From NCBI GenBank assembly GCA_025526995.1, contig JAHLKG010000049.1, positions 1-24,905 of the forward strand: a DNA stretch of 24,905 nt, read 5' to 3'. Positions 1 through 22,257 of this stretch are shown here, piece after piece. This DNA comes from Powellomyces hirtus. Lineage: Eukaryota; Chytridiomycota; Chytridiomycetes; Spizellomycetales; Powellomycetaceae. The position numbers and the translations under genes were made by a program. Under the pieces are notes generated by a model. The model was not told the DNA's origin, did not search any database, and saw nothing but the letters and a program-made list of their open reading frames with translations. Positions within the stretch are counted from its first letter, which is position 1; each line of letters opens with the position of its first letter.

Positions 1-1
1 C

Positions 2-424
2 GGTGCGGCGTCAGCTCCCATCGGTCAAACAAAGACTGAGACCCTCAATAAAGCCATAGCAGCGTTAGCCGAAGCCGGATACACGGGCCTGTCCCCCCGC
101 GATCTGACGCGATTGCGCGCCGAGTCGCCCGAAGACGACGAAGTTCTCCACGTCATGGCCGCCTCGCACGCCTACTTTCGCGTCGCATGTCGGCGGTTCA
201 GCGACAACATCCCCATGAACGTTGACTTTCATTTCCTGTCGCGGTTCGCCGAGATGCTGGAAAAGGAGCTGGTGGCGCGTCTGGGCATTTTGGAAAAGGA
301 CAATGCGGCCGTGGACCATATGTTGCAGGAAAACAGGTTCGTCGCGGAACGCAGACGCGCGCTCGAGGAACAGCGGAAGCGGCTTGAAGGCGTGTGGCGC
401 AGTTTACATGAGTTTGGCTTTTGA
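2..424 (+). CDS. Dynamin-superfamily GTPase, C-terminal GED (3' partial gene)
   Basis: The frame is open from the window edge (base 2) to a TGA at 422-424 and encodes the last 140 residues of a larger protein. The sequence matches the GTPase effector domain of dynamin-like proteins: a helix with HVMAASHAYFRVACRRFSDN, then IPMNVDFHFLSRFAEML, then a charged coiled C-terminal helix (AERRRALEEQRKRLEGVW). The spacing is most like the Mx/large fungal dynamin branch rather than Vps1/Dnm1, because the usual VPKAI segment reads IPMNV. GED helices form part of the stalk and bundle that drive self-assembly and membrane remodelling. The GTPase domain lies outside the window, so the subfamily and cellular site cannot be settled. 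No intron is needed in the visible part. Confidence 0.7.
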   Translation, partial: GAASAPIGQTKTETLNKAIAALAEAGYTGLSPRDLTRLRAESPEDDEVLHVMAASHAYFRVACRRFSDNIPMNVDFHFLSRFAEMLEKELVARLGILEKDNAAVDHMLQENRFVAERRRALEEQRKRLEGVWRSLHEFGF

Positions 425-1208
425 ACATATCGGAAGCGAAAGGATCTGGGCATCACAAGAAGTACGGCGATTTGGCAAGGACTGATACAAAGTGGGGTAG
501 TGAGCAGGTCCGCGCGCGCGCGCGCGGTTAGTCCAGATCCGTAGAAAACCCTGGAATTGATCCCGAATCAGATCCTTCAGTAGTAGGTGAAGGAATGTAG
601 TATACCAATTTTAATTCCAATGTTTGTGCAAGCTGGCATGTGACATCTGCCACACGATGTTTGGGCATATGCGCCTTTGTTGCACGGTTGCTCCCCGCGA
701 GCCCAACCAACCCCCAGATGGATCCGCAACTTGGCTGCTGCCCTGACTTGAGATGATGACGGATGCGCGGCTCAAGTCCTGGGAAAGGCAGAGCAGTCCA
801 CTGTGGTCCAAGATTGAATCATTGGATTTGCTGGGCGGAGGGAGGCGCGATGACCCCTCCACCCCTCACCGGTGTGTCAAGATTCTGGTTTTGGCCACAA
901 GAAGCTTTTGGCGTGCTGCTGCAATTTGAAAAGTTACTCTCCCGAGTCTTCCTGAATATAAAGTGACAAACTAATTGTAATTTGAAAAAATATTTGACTT
1001 GTCATGGCTCAATTTGAGTAAATTATGTATGTGATTTTTTTCAGTGAGTACACATTTTAGCAGCAAACCAGTTCTAAAAATTGTAGTTTGGATGCTATAA
1101 AAACTTTGATTTGCAAAATTCCCACAGAAATGTGATTACATACAACTTATCTTTTTGTTCAGTTGTTGCAAAATGTTTTTAACGATCTAGCTGAATTTTT
1201 TTCAACGT
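425..1208. other. Intergenic between dynamin-like gene and METTL16; no gene seen
   Basis: No convincing coding sequence is seen here. It contains an uninterrupted (CG)8 dinucleotide run at 511-526 and a distinctly AT-rich block at about 950-1210. It should hold the two converging 3' UTRs. The short ORFs here have no recognisable protein features. Confidence 0.5.
511..526. repeat. (CG)8 dinucleotide repeat
   Basis: Sixteen bases of perfect alternating CG lie 87 bases after the stop of the dynamin-like gene. Alternating CG is a classic sequence able to form left-handed DNA; any role here is unknown. Confidence 0.9.
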
Positions 1209-1274
1209 TCATTTGACGATATCCCCAAATTGTAAGATTCTCTGTTTGCAAGATCTCCTATTTACAATGGGGCG

Positions 1275-1358
<84 letters not shown>

Positions 1359-11393: not shown

Positions 11394-13299
11394 AACTGGG
11401 CGGAGATGCTAATGGCGTATTGACGCGGGCAGTAGAGTTGAGTTTGAAAAACAAGTGCGGACAGCGACCGTGGGAGAGAACAGAGCGGTCGTTTGCTACT
11501 CCGCAACGATACATATATTATCATGCGTTGGGGTCTGGGTCCCCGAATAGTGTAAGTGTAGAAATATACTCTCGGTAGGTCATCAGTAGATTCAACACAA
11601 CGCTGCAACGGCTCAGAGGGCCACCCCCCCGTCGTTCTCTAGTCAGGCCGCTCCAACCCAGCACAACACAAGATTGTGACCAGCTAACCCCCTACCAGCT
11701 TTGCGCGACTTCGTGGGGGGAAAAACTTGAACAGCAAAAGGGGCGAAGCGTCACAGAGAAGTCGCAGGTCTCAAGATCTCAAAACTCTCATTTGCGGCGT
11801 GGCTTTTCGCAAGTGTCTGTGACAGTCAGACGCGCCTTGTGGAACACGAACACCTAAATTGGGGGGATCGAGTTCTAGGCTCTCATGATGGTGATATGGC
11901 ATTGACCGCCATTATTGAGTGGCATCGACCGCAGAGCAATACGACTCCTCAAAGAGACGAATGGCCCCGGTGTGACATTACATTTGTCGCTGCCCTCCCT
12001 CCTCACTCACTCCCGCAATCACCCGTTGGTAAAGCGCCCCCACTCAGAGCAGGCAGTGATGAAAAAACACCATGGGCCTCGGGACCAGCAGAAATAAGCG
12101 AAACCCAAAAATAAGCAAGGCAGACAGTAGAGTGTACCGCGCCCGAAGCAAAGGTGCAATAAACGTCACGGTAACAAGGGTATAAAAAAAGTAGTACTTT
12201 TTTGAGGGGCGAACAGAACATGCGAGTGAAAGACACGACCAATCGGGTAACTCCATCTTCCTCCTTTGTTTTGCCTTGTGTTGGTTACGTTCGATCAAGA
12301 ATCTGAGCCATCAAATTGAATCTGAGAGAGGACAAACGCCAACTTGGACCCTCAGCTTCAAGTGCTACACCTCCGGGCGGTCCCGACTCCTCGCCAGTGC
12401 TCCAGGCTGAAACGACTGGCTCTAAGGAGTGATGTCGTGTTTTGGCATGGATGGAGGAGTTGAACGTCTGAGATACCGAGGTGGTGGCCCATTACCGATC
12501 TCGGAGATTTACAGGGCAGATCACCGCAGTCACACCACACACGTGTTTGAAACAACAGTTGTCGTCTAATTGACTTGAGTTGATGTGTGAAATGCTACTT
12601 ATAGGCTGAGGGCTTAGACAAGAGCCAACCGATCAAAAGAGAACAAATGCCCAATTTTGAGTGAGAGAACAAAGGGCGAGACTTTTTGACAAGCGCGCGT
12701 GATGATGACTCGCGGATGCGTTATTCTGTTAGTGATGAAGAAAGAAGACGGCGGTGGAAGACGGAGGGCAGGAGGGGCCGGGCCGAAAGGCGGAAGAAAG
12801 TTGTGATGTCGTCGTCAGAGTGTTCAGTCGGCCAAAAAGTTCAATCCCGCCCCGTTGACGAGTTGACGTCGCTTGGCGGTTTTATCCTTATCTCACCAAT
12901 GCGGTAATGCCCCAACCATCACCCGGCTTTACATATACAGCGACAGAACAACGGGCGGGCACAAAGGAGTAGCAACCCATCGCTTTGCACACGCTTGCAA
13001 TATTTTTGGTGTTCATATTCATCAGCGAACTTCCGCCATTTTTACTTCGCCTCCTTCGTGTTGTGTTCGTGTCGGGCTGGTCTTTGTCGTGAAACACTCT
13101 CGCTAGTGCCGCCTTTCTTCCGTTGAACCTCTTTCGGAGCCCCTCACAGGAGTGCGGAGAAGCTGGTGGCGATTCTCGCGCCGACGACAAGACTTCTATA
13201 TCACTGCTAGACCCCGATTGCCCGTCTCCCAGTAATATTGAAAATTTTATGCGGACTTGCTAGTTGAGCTCAATCACCGATACTTTGGACACGGACACA
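11394..13299. promoter_or_regulatory. 1.9 kb divergent intergenic region between the GPCR and SKT5
   Basis: No supported gene lies here, although several shadow ORFs exist. It is the largest region without any gene candidate in the window, and both flanking genes read outward, so both promoters lie in it. A TATA-like AT stretch (acatatattatcat) lies at about 11511-11525, upstream of the GPCR. A tttatccttatctc stretch near 12880-12893 resembles GATA-type elements. An acatatacag stretch near 12931 lies on the SKT5 side. These site calls are by eye only. Confidence 0.4.
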
Positions 13300-15228
13300 A
13301 TGACCAGACCAGAACATAGACCGGACCCACACCACTCACGGTCGCAAAGCACCTCAATAAACCTTCGTCCTCCGCTACCCCCACCACCTGGAAGACAGAA
13401 GGACCACCACCATTCTAAATGGGAATCACCAATGCAGCACCAACACAGAGCTACGCCTTCCACCCACTCGAAGGGGTCGTCTTCAAGATCGTCGTTCCGC
13501 AACTCGTTGGATGGAGAGTCATACCGACCGCCTCGTGCAAACCGACTGTCACTCTCTGCGTCGCCAGTGCCCGACTTTCTTTGCCCACCCGATAAATCTG
13601 CTCCTGCACCACTTCCGAGCAGTGGTGGCGATCAAGCGAAGCAGACCTACATCCACGGCCACTATGAAGAAGTGGGAGCTCGCGCGCTGCGGAAGCTGAC
13701 GAAGCCGCCGCGAGTTCAATGCGTTGCTCCAGCGCCTGGTCGGCCAGCGTTGGAAGATCACCGAGCGGCTTCAGCGCCTGTGTTGCAGAAAAAGAGCTCC
13801 AACGATCAAACACATCCACCGCCATTGGCGGGACCACTCGCCCCATATATGCGACGTGGGCGGAGCAGCAGTGGCGCAAGTATGACGAGCAGTGAAGACG
13901 AACACGCAGATTCCTCCAATCCGAACTCTATATTCAAGCTCAAGCACTCTGACGATCGCCTACAGACACAAATACGGATTATCGAAACCATCGATCAGCT
14001 GAAGCACGCTGCCACGCTGGCCACCACTCGGCATGCGGGGATGAAAGGGACAGTAGCCGAAGCTATGGAAGCCCGCTTCGCCTACGCCAAGTACCTGGTG
14101 GAAAATGTCCGACATCTGGAGATGGGCCAAAAGGAGCATCTCGACGAAGGGCTGCAGATGCTCAAGACACTCAGCCGGGAAGGCCATGCCGATGCCCAGT
14201 TCACGTATGCCAGTCTTCTCATCACGGGCGTCCCCGGCACCCACACCCGCCATCGACCTGACTACGAACAGGCATTCCCACTGTATCTCAGTGCAGGAAA
14301 ACGGGGTCATGCCGATGCCTGCTACCATGCAGCCTTGTGCTACGAGCATGGACGAGGGACGAACGCACCGCCGGACCCAGTTCAAGCCGTCAAAAAGTAC
14401 CGCAAAGCTGCCATTCAGCACCACCCGGGAGCCATGTACCGGCTCGGAATGGTCCTGGCGAACGGAGAGCTCGGTCAACCGCGAAACATGACGGCATCAG
14501 TCAAATGGTTGAATCTTTCGGCGCGCTTCGCGACCGCAAAGCACCCGCACGCACTTTATCAGCTAGCACTGCTCCATGAGCACGACCCTGCGGCGCTCAA
14601 CGGACACGTCGACGGAGAGCGCGCCTTTGAGCTCCTCCGTCGGGCCGCAGAGCTCGGTCACGTTCCTTCTCAGGTCAGACTAGGCCACTTGTATCAATTC
14701 GGCGAGCTCGGCGCCGCTATCGACCCCGAAAGTTCTATCCGATACTACTCGCTTGCAGCCCAGAAGGGCAGCGCGGAAGCCATGTATGAGCTCAGCGCGT
14801 GGCACTTTACCGGCGCCGAGGATCCCGTACACCACACCGTCATCTTACCCCCCAACGACCAAGAAGCCTACATTTGGGCCCGTAAAGCCGCCGAAAAGGG
14901 CCTCCCGCAAGCGGAATACGCCGTGGGATTCTACACCGAGTCCGCCATCGGCGTGCCCCGCGACATGGACGAAGCGCTATGTTGGTACACCATTGCCGCA
15001 ACCCACGGCGACGACCACGCCGTTGCAAGACTTAAAGGCTCCGACCCAACCAGTCCGGCCGACCCAAGCATCCTGGCCGCCGTGGCTGACGTTGGCGACC
15101 CTGTGGAAGGGCATGATGGCAAAATCCGCCGTGAAGGCTTTAATCGCCTCTATACCGTTCGTGCATACAAGCGCGTGAAAAACCAGATTGTGGAACGCAG
15201 GAATCTGCGAAAAGCCGGTGGACTGTGA
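13300..15228 (+). CDS. SKT5: SKT5/CHS4-type chitin synthase regulator with Sel1 repeats
   Basis: A single uninterrupted exon encodes 642 aa from the ATG at 13300; upstream codons in the frame are non-ATG until a TAG at 13261. Residues 1-210 are disordered (Pro, His, Ser). From about 212 to 590 there is a solenoid of Sel1-like repeats, recognisable by copies of the pattern A-x-Y-x-L-A-x-x-x-x-x-G: for example MEARFAYAKYLVENV, ADAQFTYASLLITGV, ADACYHAALCYEHGRGT, GAMYRLGMVLANGELG and SAEAMYELSAWHFTGAE. The order and spacing match fungal Skt5/Chs4, which binds and activates a class IV chitin synthase at sites of polarised growth. Yeast Chs4 ends in a prenylated CaaX box; this protein ends in NLRKAGGL, so membrane attachment by that route is absent. 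It is the only long intronless gene in the window. Confidence 0.85.
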   Translation: MTRPEHRPDPHHSRSQSTSINLRPPLPPPPGRQKDHHHSKWESPMQHQHRATPSTHSKGSSSRSSFRNSLDGESYRPPRANRLSLSASPVPDFLCPPDKSAPAPLPSSGGDQAKQTYIHGHYEEVGARALRKLTKPPRVQCVAPAPGRPALEDHRAASAPVLQKKSSNDQTHPPPLAGPLAPYMRRGRSSSGASMTSSEDEHADSSNPNSIFKLKHSDDRLQTQIRIIETIDQLKHAATLATTRHAGMKGTVAEAMEARFAYAKYLVENVRHLEMGQKEHLDEGLQMLKTLSREGHADAQFTYASLLITGVPGTHTRHRPDYEQAFPLYLSAGKRGHADACYHAALCYEHGRGTNAPPDPVQAVKKYRKAAIQHHPGAMYRLGMVLANGELGQPRNMTASVKWLNLSARFATAKHPHALYQLALLHEHDPAALNGHVDGERAFELLRRAAELGHVPSQVRLGHLYQFGELGAAIDPESSIRYYSLAAQKGSAEAMYELSAWHFTGAEDPVHHTVILPPNDQEAYIWARKAAEKGLPQAEYAVGFYTESAIGVPRDMDEALCWYTIAATHGDDHAVARLKGSDPTSPADPSILAAVADVGDPVEGHDGKIRREGFNRLYTVRAYKRVKNQIVERRNLRKAGGL

Positions 15229-16984: not shown

Positions 16985-17057
16985 TTTGAGATGGAGACTC
17001 CTCGCCTTCGCGCGTAGACTCTACAGTACGTTCGCAAACCCGGTGCCTGGGCCAGAG

Positions 17058-17065
17058 TATTTAAG
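17058..17065 (+). promoter_or_regulatory. TATA-like box, distal copy
   Basis: TATTTAAG lies in repeat copy A, identical in context to the proximal copy. It would drive a transcript starting further upstream, with copy B as leader. Confidence 0.45.
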
Positions 17066-17199
17066 CATGGCTCTGTCTTCCTCGTCCCTGCCTTTGTAAA
17101 TCAATCACCCCACCGTTTGAGATGGAGGCTCCTCGCCTTCGCGTGTAGACTCTACAGTACGTTCGCAAACCCGGTGCCTGTCCGGTGCCTGGGCAAGAG

Positions 17200-17207
17200 T
17201 ATTTAAG
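17200..17207 (+). promoter_or_regulatory. TATA-like box, proximal copy
   Basis: TATTTAAG lies in repeat copy B, about 70 bp upstream of the ATG at 17275. It is followed by a CT-rich stretch (ctctgtcttcctcgtccctg) typical of fungal transcription start regions. Confidence 0.55.
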
Positions 17208-17274
17208 CATGGCTCTGTCTTCCTCGTCCCTGCCTTTGTAAATCAAAACCCCACCGTCCCCTCTTCAGTCCAAG

Positions 17275-18344: not shown

Positions 18345-19293
18345 TCATGTCCGTAAGCTCATCCCGCACGCAAACGAATACAGCCGTGAATCAATGCGAA
18401 GGCCCGCGCATTGTGTCTGCAGATCTGCAGGGAATTACGGAAATGTTAAAAAGCAATCATCATTAAGGTATGCCAATAGCGTCGGGGGGCAATGGTGTGG
18501 CTGGAAGACCAGATGGGAGCCTACCATGCAGCGTATCAAGAAGTCCGAGTAATGGCATCGCAACGGTTCGCAGACTCCACTCGTCATCTTCGCGCGCCGG
18601 CTGTGGAGCGCGGTTTACATCACTATCCGGATCAATCTGAGCCGCTTGTTCAGAACATATGCATATATCCGAACATTGGTCGAATAACTCTACACCTACA
18701 TCAACAGTAACCATACGCGAACAGCTGCTAGTAATCCCCGGCTCATACGTTATCGGCGGCCCGACTGACAGGATCGTGCCGCAATAGCCGGTTTCCTCCT
18801 TCAGTTCGCGCCCGGCGGCGAGTTCTGGGGATTCGCCAGCGTCAACGAGTCCCGAGGGAAACTCCAACGTCCATTTTTGCGTCGGGGGACGGAATTGGAG
18901 TACGAGCAAGATGGTTGGGACGGGTGGAAATTGGAGCGGTGACGTGCTGGCGCGGATAATGGCGACCACGTCCACGGCTGTTGTCGCACGTTATGGGATC
19001 AGAATGCAAAGAGAATCTGACAAGAATGTAGGATATACAGAATACACGCATTTCACAGCCCTACCATCAACATCATCGGGGCTCTGTATCGCCTTCTCCT
19101 TCTGGTGCGTCCTCTGCACCAGTTCCCATGTCCGCCGGGTGCCCGACGGGTCCGGAAACGATGCTTCCACCAACTGCAGCCATTTTGGCGAGGACAGAGG
19201 TGAAAAGGAGACGGTGGGTACACACGTCAGGGCTGCCGGAACGTTGGCGGCACTGAGGATGCCAGCTGGGGGTTGGGGTGTGTGTGGTGGCAT
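18345..19293 (-). CDS. NUDT5: NUDT5-like Nudix hydrolase (ADP-sugar pyrophosphatase), three exons
   Basis: Exons 19293-19065, 18977-18525 and 18424-18345 join in phase to give 253 aa. The Nudix box at residues 119-141 is complete: G-x5-E-x7-R-E-L-K-E-E-T-G-Y, which binds Mg2+ for pyrophosphate cleavage. Around it the order matches NUDT5: SGTRRTWELVQRTHQKEKA, then VLQFRPPTQKWTLEFPSGLVD, then PGITSSCSRMVTVDV, and at the end the last exon IDSRLYSFACGMSL (human VDARVYSYALAL). NUDT5-type enzymes hydrolyse ADP-ribose and other ADP-sugars. The start is well supported, since a TAA codon lies directly before the ATG in frame. An insert of about 15 residues after the Nudix core (near residues 165-180) is longer than in human NUDT5 and could be an unrecognised intron. 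Confidence 0.85.
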
Positions 19294-21131: not shown

Positions 21132-22257
21132 TTACAGTATCGTGCAAAGTTTCTTCTTTTGCTTCTCCCCCGGACGTGTGGTGCCGTTCTTCAGATGTCG
21201 GATCATCCGTACCACATTGTAGAACGCCCTGATAAGAGAATGGCATCAGTATCACGAGCACAGGAGAATGGAGAGAAACGATTTTGACGCACTTGTCGAC
21301 GTTTAGACACGTTTTCGCAGAAGTCTCCATGAACTCGCAATGTAACCTCCGCGCCATATGCTGCCCTTCTTCTTTGGAGACTTCTCGTTCCGCTACTTTG
21401 TCGCATTTGTTTCCGATCAGCATCAATGGGACCTGTTGTTGTTGAATAAGAGTTTAAGCGGTCAGAAATCCGTTCCATCATCTAACGCAACATAAACATC
21501 GTTCGCCAATGATAAGTACAGAGTCAGTATCCTTGACACGGGTTATTTGCTGCTTGAATCGCTCAACGCGCTCGAATGTGCTTCGTGATGTTATCGAATA
21601 GACAAGAAGGAAACCTTCGCCGTCCCGGATCCATTGGTCACGAAGTCTAAACAAGATGTGCAACGATTGAGCAAAGTTCGCGCCAAAAAAAAAGCGTGTC
21701 ATGATCTAATCCAACTTACGCGGTATATTCCTCCTGTCCAGCAGTGTCAAGAACTTCCAAAATGCAAGGTTGGTCATCGATGACGACCTGTTTCCGGTAC
21801 GAATCTTCTATAGTTGGATCGTATGTCTGCAAACATTGCCACGAAAATATTATCAGCACTTGCCGCCTAACATGAAAATTAGAGGCTATGGCATCAAACT
21901 CACCTCTGCACGATAGGAAAAGAACGAGAACGATTACGAGACATTGTTATTACATGGTGGATCCCACTCACAAACGATTCGTAAGGCTGGTACACAGAGC
22001 CTGGAGACTCACCAACAAAGTGATTCAGACACAACTAGAAAACACAACAGCATTCCGATTAGCATGGAATTCACAGACTCTCTTCAAAAGGGACGGAAAA
22101 GGATCCATACCTGGATTGTGAGAGCTACGGCACAAGGAGGTGAGGGAAGACAGAACGGTGAGCCAAGGAACCCGCGAAATGCGAGTGAGTCGTATGTGTA
22201 CACACCAGTTTTCCCAACACCACCGTCCCCCAGCACAACCAATCTATATAGCGTCAT
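21132..22257 (-). CDS. RAS2: Ras2-type small GTPase, eight exons including a 2-nt microexon
   Basis: Exons 22257-22206 (52 nt), 22124-22111 (14), 22034-22013 (22), 21905-21904 (2), 21826-21720, 21646-21520, 21432-21293 and 21228-21132 join in phase to give 186 aa. Ras switches between GTP and GDP to control growth and morphogenesis at membranes. The joined protein is numbered like human Ras up to the NKxD motif: GDGGVGKT 10-17, [11 protein letters not shown] 32-42, DTAGQEE 57-63 and NKCD 116-119. ETSAK follows one residue later (144-148). The segment ALTIQLCLNHFVETYD is typical of the fungal Ras-2 group. It ends in a polybasic stretch plus the CaaX box CTIL, whose final Leu predicts geranylgeranylation. 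The fourth exon supplies only the AG of Glu30 (GAG). All seven introns are GT-AG and 64-107 nt. No other canonical splice combination that I found gives an intact effector region. Confidence 0.9.
21904..21905 (-). other. RAS2: Putative 2-nt microexon (AG) of the Ras2 gene
   Basis: On the minus strand the context is tcctatcgtgcag, then AG, then gtgagtttgatg: a good acceptor and a consensus donor two bases apart. The preceding exon ends in a lone G after Val29 and the next begins with ACA (Thr31), so exactly two bases are missing and AG makes GAG (Glu30). Flanking introns would be 107 and 77 nt, both in the local range. Direct splicing would give a 186-nt intron and a frameshift. Confidence 0.78.

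Follow-up and report, generated by a model that had tools for sequence, protein, structure and literature searches.

The window analysed here, a 24,905-nt stretch of DNA from the chytrid Powellomyces hirtus, raises the question of whether a Ras gene is spliced through an exon of only two bases. An earlier note had proposed such an exon, AG, in a ras2 gene on the minus strand. We find that this 2-nt exon, as predicted from the sequence, is very probably real. Its place is the switch I region of Ras, which borders the effector-binding loop and extends into it.

Structure and product of the ras2 gene

Joining eight coding exons on the minus strand (22257..21132) gives a complete Ras2-type GTPase of 186 residues. 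The exons measure 52, 14, 22, 2, 107, 127, 140 and 97 nt, the last including the stop, and are arranged as follows (percentiles refer to splice-site scores among 56 local introns from small-GTPase loci of the same genome).

Exon 1, 22206..22257, minus strand: 52 nt, ATG at 22257
Intron 1, 22125..22205, minus strand: 81 nt, gtgtgt..tag; donor at the 32nd, acceptor at the 9th percentile
Exon 2, 22111..22124, minus strand: 14-nt microexon, CTCTCACAATCCAG
Intron 2, 22035..22110, minus strand: 76 nt; donor at the 75th, acceptor at the 84th percentile
Exon 3, 22013..22034, minus strand: 22-nt microexon, ending in phase 1 after GTT G
Intron 3, 21906..22012, minus strand: 107 nt, gtgagt..gtgcag; donor at the 50th, acceptor at the 18th percentile
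Exon 4, 21904..21905, minus strand: predicted 2-nt microexon AG, completing GAG for Glu30
Intron 4, 21827..21903, minus strand: 77 nt, gtgagt..tttgcag; donor at the 88th, acceptor at the 27th percentile
Exon 5, 21720..21826, minus strand: 107 nt, switch I to switch II
Intron 5, 21647..21719, minus strand: 73 nt; acceptor at the 20th percentile
Exon 6, 21520..21646, minus strand: 127 nt
Intron 6, 21433..21519, minus strand: 87 nt, weak sites
Exon 7, 21293..21432, minus strand: 140 nt
Intron 7, 21229..21292, minus strand: 64 nt
Exon 8, 21132..21228, minus strand: 97 nt with the stop TAA at 21134-21132; CTIL end

Exon 3 ends in CACTTTGTTG at 22013, followed by gtgagt, and exon 5 begins tttgcag/ACATACGAT at 21826. 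The strings and coordinates that the earlier note gave around the microexon were all verified on the minus strand, as were its 14-nt (22124-22111) and 22-nt (22034-22013) exons, and a direct count in the joined product places Glu at residue 30, where the note had put it. Of all the gene's introns, intron 6 has the weakest sites: among local introns its donor gtactt ranks at the 2nd percentile and its acceptor caacag at the 4th.

Ras proteins carry a P-loop, switch I, the motifs DTAGQE, NKCD and ETSAK, and a C-terminal CaaX box, and all of these are present in the spliced product, which ends in the CaaX box CTIL. A profile search matched product residues 5-165 to positions 1-161 of the 162 in the Pfam Ras profile PF00071 (194.4 bits, E=1.2e-57, cut-off 21.6), which places the protein in the Ras family and upholds that part of the earlier assignment. 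An alignment with KRAS spans residues 1-185 and is gap-free through switch I. The Ras2 type is probable; the name itself we take from fungal Ras2 sequences, which contain NHFVETYDPT. The same genome holds L011, L030 and L024, genes separate from ras2 that we presume to be Ras1-like, Rap/Rsr1-like and Rho-type, respectively; the best query for L024 was RHOA. Judged by its predicted product, ras2 is a functional-looking Ras-family GTPase gene, probably of the Ras2 type.

The contig that holds the window (C49) is a near-identical second copy of part of contig C9 (about 359.75-384.42 kb), and is either a redundant haplotype contig or an assembly duplicate. The two are 99.9% identical over window positions 1-1300 and 1586-24901, and a low-complexity tract between them (1301-1585) differs in length. 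Comparison of the window with C9 also brought out a tandem duplication of about 130-140 bp at 16985-17257, whose copies are about 90% alike. The window further contains a plus-strand gene at 13264-15228 whose product has a long low-complexity N-terminus and Sel1 repeats (Pfam Sel1 E=3.6e-36), a minus-strand open frame at 18463-18975 with a NUDIX domain (Pfam E=8.3e-12), and a long G- or C-rich low-complexity tract at 1213-1830 with poly-Gly and poly-Pro open frames on both strands. The rRNA pieces found were all degenerate: L053 carries a MITE-like insert of roughly 400 bp (about 82-485) in a degenerate 18S rRNA 3' end, with ends that by eye resemble inverted repeats of about 45 bp, and L054 holds a further partial 18S piece (323-496).

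Support for AG as a 2-nt exon

We wrote a spliced protein-to-DNA aligner that uses a generic splice-site score and was given no microexon information, and compared homologous proteins drawn from PDB chains and from the genome's own paralogs. KRAS as the query returned the same eight-exon structure, AG included, with the last exon shortened by the end of the query. For the 5' part of ras2, 8 of 14 queries gave identical junctions with the AG exon (KRAS, RHEB, CDC42, RAB1 and the genome's own L011, L014, L025 and L030). The split between queries largely tracks relatedness: all six Ras-family queries chose this structure (KRAS, RHEB, L011, L014, L025, L030), as did 2 of the 8 others. RAB6 took the AG exon inside a different structure, and RHOA, RAB5, RAB7, RAB11 and RAN (5/14) yielded other structures in which AG is unused. 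When the microexon acceptor was blocked, the six Ras-family scores dropped by 10.4 to 19.8, that of CDC42 by 5.3 and that of RAB1 by 2.8. A 2-nt exon completing codon 30, as the earlier note had it, is the best gene model, and the aligner chose AG unprompted.

The predicted exon has canonical borders (gtgcag|AG|gtgagt). For local reference we built a splice-site model from 56 of 61 introns at 21 small-GTPase loci of the same genome; five introns entered neither this model nor the position table, three that exceed 500 nt and two that measure exactly 45 nt, the shortest the aligner accepts. The 56 introns have 55 GT donors and one GC donor, and their acceptors are CAG (32), TAG (21) and AAG (3). 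Their median length is 76.5 nt (quartiles 69 and 124, 95th percentile 228). The introns flanking AG, which the note had called local in size, are of normal length at 107 and 77 nt, and both lie inside the middle half of this distribution. Among the 56, the microexon's acceptor ranks at the 18th percentile, on the weak side, and its donor at the 88th; weak-side acceptors also occur at ras2 introns 1, 4, 5 and 6 (9th, 27th, 20th and 4th percentile). A YTRAY branch-point-like motif is absent from ras2 introns 1, 3 and 5, and CTRAY is absent at 8-60 nt from the acceptor in 35 of the 56 local introns. Small exons were also returned elsewhere in the genome: a 20-nt internal exon at L028 (read as Rac-type), a 22-nt internal exon at L023 (best query RAB7), and at L020 a 1-nt exon next to an 858-nt intron, which we take to be an aligner artefact.

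With the exon 3 donor and the exon 5 acceptor fixed, enumeration left exactly one 2-nt exon candidate, AG. Compared with the products of skipping and retention, AG is required to keep the conserved switch I motif in frame, and the predicted mRNA across the junction that bears Glu30 reads GTTGAGACATAC.

We then measured how readily such an exon arises by chance. The 186-nt span between exons 3 and 5 was dinucleotide-shuffled 20,000 times. An AG-NN-GT of any kind appeared in 7,764 of the shuffles, and a 2-nt exon coding for D or E at residue 30 in 1,869. Both sites of such a D/E-coding exon reached at least the 5th percentile of local introns in 215 shuffles, and at least the observed strength in 2. 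Out of 300 shuffles given to a permissive aligner, 145 yielded a 2-nt exon of some kind and 2 reached the real score. A 2-nt rescue alone is thus cheap, and the case rests on the quality of the sites and on the residue encoded. A sample of 369,810 strand-bases, drawn from the window and 16 stretches of contig C1, held 16 D/E-coding 2-nt exons whose two sites each reached at least the 5th percentile. One sampled site had the observed scores, and since the window is part of the sample, that one is the ras2 locus itself. The strict motif YAG-AG-GTRAGT is rare genome-wide and without excess: a scan of 29.26 Mb, both strands included, gave 36 occurrences, of which the assembled copies of the ras2 locus account for two, against 64 occurrences of its reversed control, and its expectation is about 6e-5 per 186-nt span (95 eligible positions). 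A pattern search for a related locus gave 2 matches in viral contigs and 51 in genome contigs, with no confirmed relative among them. We consider it highly likely that the ras2 pre-mRNA carries AG as a constitutive 2-nt exon between introns 3 and 4, and that these would be removed sequentially.

Splicing route and alternative readings

Introns 3 and 4 are of ordinary length, so each is recognisable as a unit, and each would be recognised by intron definition as an ordinary short GT-AG intron. Two bases leave no room for the U1 snRNP of intron 4 alongside the machinery that acts at the intron 3 acceptor; given these known footprints, removal would be sequential, with either intron going first. 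Either order would join GTTG-AG-ACATAC and give Glu30. We infer splicing through AG, the order of removal and constitutive use from the gene model, the site strengths and the rarity of the arrangement, which can be read directly in the DNA.

The earlier note had suggested a ratchet-like mechanism, a suggestion that finds no support in the letters of the locus. From -3 to +6, the intron 4 donor reads GAGGTGAGT whether or not intron 3 has been removed; the G of GAG|gtgagt comes from the end of intron 3 beforehand and from exon 3 afterwards. As the first splice leaves this context unchanged, it rebuilds no site, and a ratchet is not required; since either order leads to the same product, stepwise splicing is plausible on steric grounds alone. 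ras2 resembles recursive splice sites and RS-exons in having a donor at or a few bases from a junction, with two rounds of splicing there (PMC6224609). At a recursive site, typically in a long intron, the first splice recreates the donor at an exon of zero or near-zero length; in ras2, ordinary introns (107/77 nt) flank coding bases, the donor is not recreated, and the total span is just 186 nt. In a zero-length reading, with the second AG (21904) as the acceptor, the acceptor scores below all 56 local acceptors.

Among inclusion, skipping and retention of either or both introns, inclusion is the sole predicted route to Ras. Retention of intron 4 gives a product of 35 residues, of both introns 66, and of intron 3 71. 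Skipping, which the note had said would destroy Ras, would indeed do so: if the donor after exon 3 pairs with the acceptor before exon 5, over 186 nt, translation meets a stop in exon 5 after 46 residues. The note had gone on to suggest an on/off control. An exon included under some conditions, with Ras2 switched off by the 46-residue truncation, would fit this early stop and a 186-nt skip intron that lies within the local length range (95th percentile 228), and regulated microexons have a precedent in Trichoderma (PMC11121469). Folding of the region around the microexon revealed no local RNA structure beyond that of shuffles (z-score -0.03), Rfam gave 0 matches in the window, L033 and L035, and the strong donor is what constitutive use would lead one to expect. 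We regard regulated inclusion as unlikely, and the on/off control as speculation. An RNA structure that brings the splice sites together was rejected on the same z-score.

A second alternative replaces the two introns and AG by one intron. The earlier note had held that only AG keeps the reading frame, which overstates the case: among single introns of at least 40 nt from exon 3 to exon 5, 42 GT-AG, 8 GC-AG and 7 AT-AC introns are in frame and stop-free over the tested stretch, so frame by itself does not compel a microexon, though the 42 canonical introns damage switch I. No single GT-AG, GC-AG or AT-AC intron in the enumeration yields NHFV-(D/E)-TYDP. With any dinucleotides allowed, exactly one does, a 184-nt intron (22012 to 21829) that would use a non-canonical GC acceptor. 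Intron 4 ends in the letters of the microexon, AG, and the mRNA made through the microexon is therefore identical, letter for letter, to that made through the GC acceptor, as is the protein. It follows that cDNA reads across GTTG-AG-ACATAC, which the note had offered as a test, would confirm Glu30 and not the 2-nt exon, as they cannot separate it from a GT..GC intron with its acceptor at 21829. An RNA in which intron 3 is retained and intron 4 removed would read gtgcagAGACATAC, and in the reverse case exon 3 would be joined to AGgtgagttt. We consider the GC acceptor very unlikely, since the second step of splicing requires AG and the strong CAG-AG-GTGAGT within the same span would be left as an unexplained coincidence. 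The AG ending of all 56 local introns does not count as separate evidence against it, as the aligner permitted AG alone.

A single 190-nt intron from a donor GTTGGT at 22016 would be canonical (GT-AG) and in frame, giving NHF-TYDP with residues 29-30 absent and switch I two residues shorter. With the microexon blocked, the aligner took this intron when L025 of the same genome was the query; with KRAS it combined the donor at 22016 with a 6-nt exon (NHF-FD-TYDP). That donor, TTT|GTTGGT, scores at just the 4th percentile among local donors, with a gtgagt of median strength 4 bases away, and the intron deletes two residues where KRAS, L011, L014 and L030 show no deletion; we find it extremely improbable. 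A sequence or assembly error, with the true exon 3 ending GTTGAG|gtgagt before a single long intron, is scarcely to be believed: putting the bases back would give a textbook donor at that very position, and the assembly does contain a redundant contig at this locus, but the two assembled copies match over the entire gene and an error would not create the strong intronic CAG-AG-GTGAGT that is present. The ras2 region is 100% identical between the copies over 1,301 bp, which disfavours a local error to the extent that the copies do not share reads.

Possible origin, precedents and significance of the predicted 2-nt exon

On KRAS numbering we compared the intron positions of ras2 with those of the 21 small-GTPase loci. 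L024 has an intron (CCTGAA|gtatgt) at the same position and phase as intron 4 of ras2 (after codon 30, phase 0), and the position of intron 6 (after codon 108, phase 0) is common to L030 and L019, the L019 alignment being weak (score 207.5). The position of intron 3 (codon 30, phase 1) is found at none of the 21 loci. Overall, 2 of 7 ras2 positions are shared; with 47 of about 507 slots occupied, about 0.65 sharings are expected, so the overlap is not significant and suggestive at most, and we rejected it as proof of age. We also rejected intron 3 as a repeated introner-like element, its matches being the two ras2 copies only (E up to 0.001). Introns 3 and 4 showed no match longer than 6 bases to each other among the ten best listed, the shared gtgagt included.

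Two origins are possible. In one, a second intron would have arisen two bases upstream of an older phase-0 intron after codon 30; in the other, the exon would have lost its terminal AG, with an intronic CAG-AG-GTGAGT recruited to restore the frame. The intron pattern fits either an older intron 4 with a later intron 3 or such an AG rescue, and GTTGAG|gtgagt minus AG is exactly the present GTTG|gtgagt. The exon junction complex sits about 20-24 nt upstream of a junction. If rescue occurred, exon 3 would have retained its gtgagt donor after losing the terminal AG, and the 14- and 22-nt exons may leave no space for this complex, which in human cells is reported to repress a donor beside a fresh junction (PMC6224609). 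Nelson and Syed proposed a rescue scenario for the Fusarium 1-nt exon (PMC12940212). A combined history, in which an ancestral intron after codon 30 was followed by loss of AG from exon 3 and rescue by CAG-AG-GTGAGT, with the tiny upstream exons being permissive, is one we entertain as a doubtful conjecture. Were it true, the run of tiny exons would be mutually permissive, and Ras2 dosage would depend on the arrangement.

Exons this tiny are very rare, yet some have been described, and ras2 can be set beside them. A 1-nt exon in Fusarium CYP621A is called the first for a fungal gene in the paper that describes it, which also cites exons of 2-5 bp from Arabidopsis, Drosophila and humans (PMC12940212). 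A 1-nt exon is known from Arabidopsis APC11 (PMC4674806), and 1-nt exons from plant APC11 and VPS55 (PMC8831610). Like that of CYP621A, the ras2 exon is ultra-small, lies within a conserved motif of a fungal gene, is required for phase, and has AG/GT borders inside what looks like an over-long single intron. The Fusarium exon is 1 nt, the centre of a glycine codon in a P450, and is backed by 20 Fusarium orthologs and 18 SRA reads (PMC12940212), whereas the ras2 exon is 2 nt, lies in a Ras gene and is predicted from sequence. With the plant APC11 and VPS55 exons it shares the character of a coding mini-exon whose loss shifts the frame or alters the protein (PMC4674806, PMC8831610). Those plant exons, by contrast, are verified by cDNA or RT-PCR, in APC11 also by base substitution in a minigene, and are kept across land plants, with VPS55 found with and without its exon in some species (PMC4674806, PMC8831610). 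Xlr2 of Trichoderma virens likewise has a fungal microexon in a regulatory gene; unlike ras2, it is a transcription factor gene whose microexon is included in a glucose-dependent manner (PMC11121469). The excerpted text of PMC13149111 and PMC8042270 holds nothing on 2-nt exons, and no Ras gene with a microexon was among the matches listed in the open-licence literature, as judged by titles and the starts of abstracts. With 1-nt exons published and no Ras microexon among these matches, the kind is known and the ras2 case appears new.

If real, AG would count among the smallest known exons of signalling genes, and the spliceosome would cope with splice sites two bases apart at a place where errors truncate Ras. 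Because the microexon has the same letters as the next acceptor, RNA-seq aligners may give a false GT-GC junction and annotation may miss the exon; for ras2, an aligner would probably report a 184-nt GT-GC intron (22012/21829). An apparent GT-GC junction of this kind would be a searchable signature for further cases.
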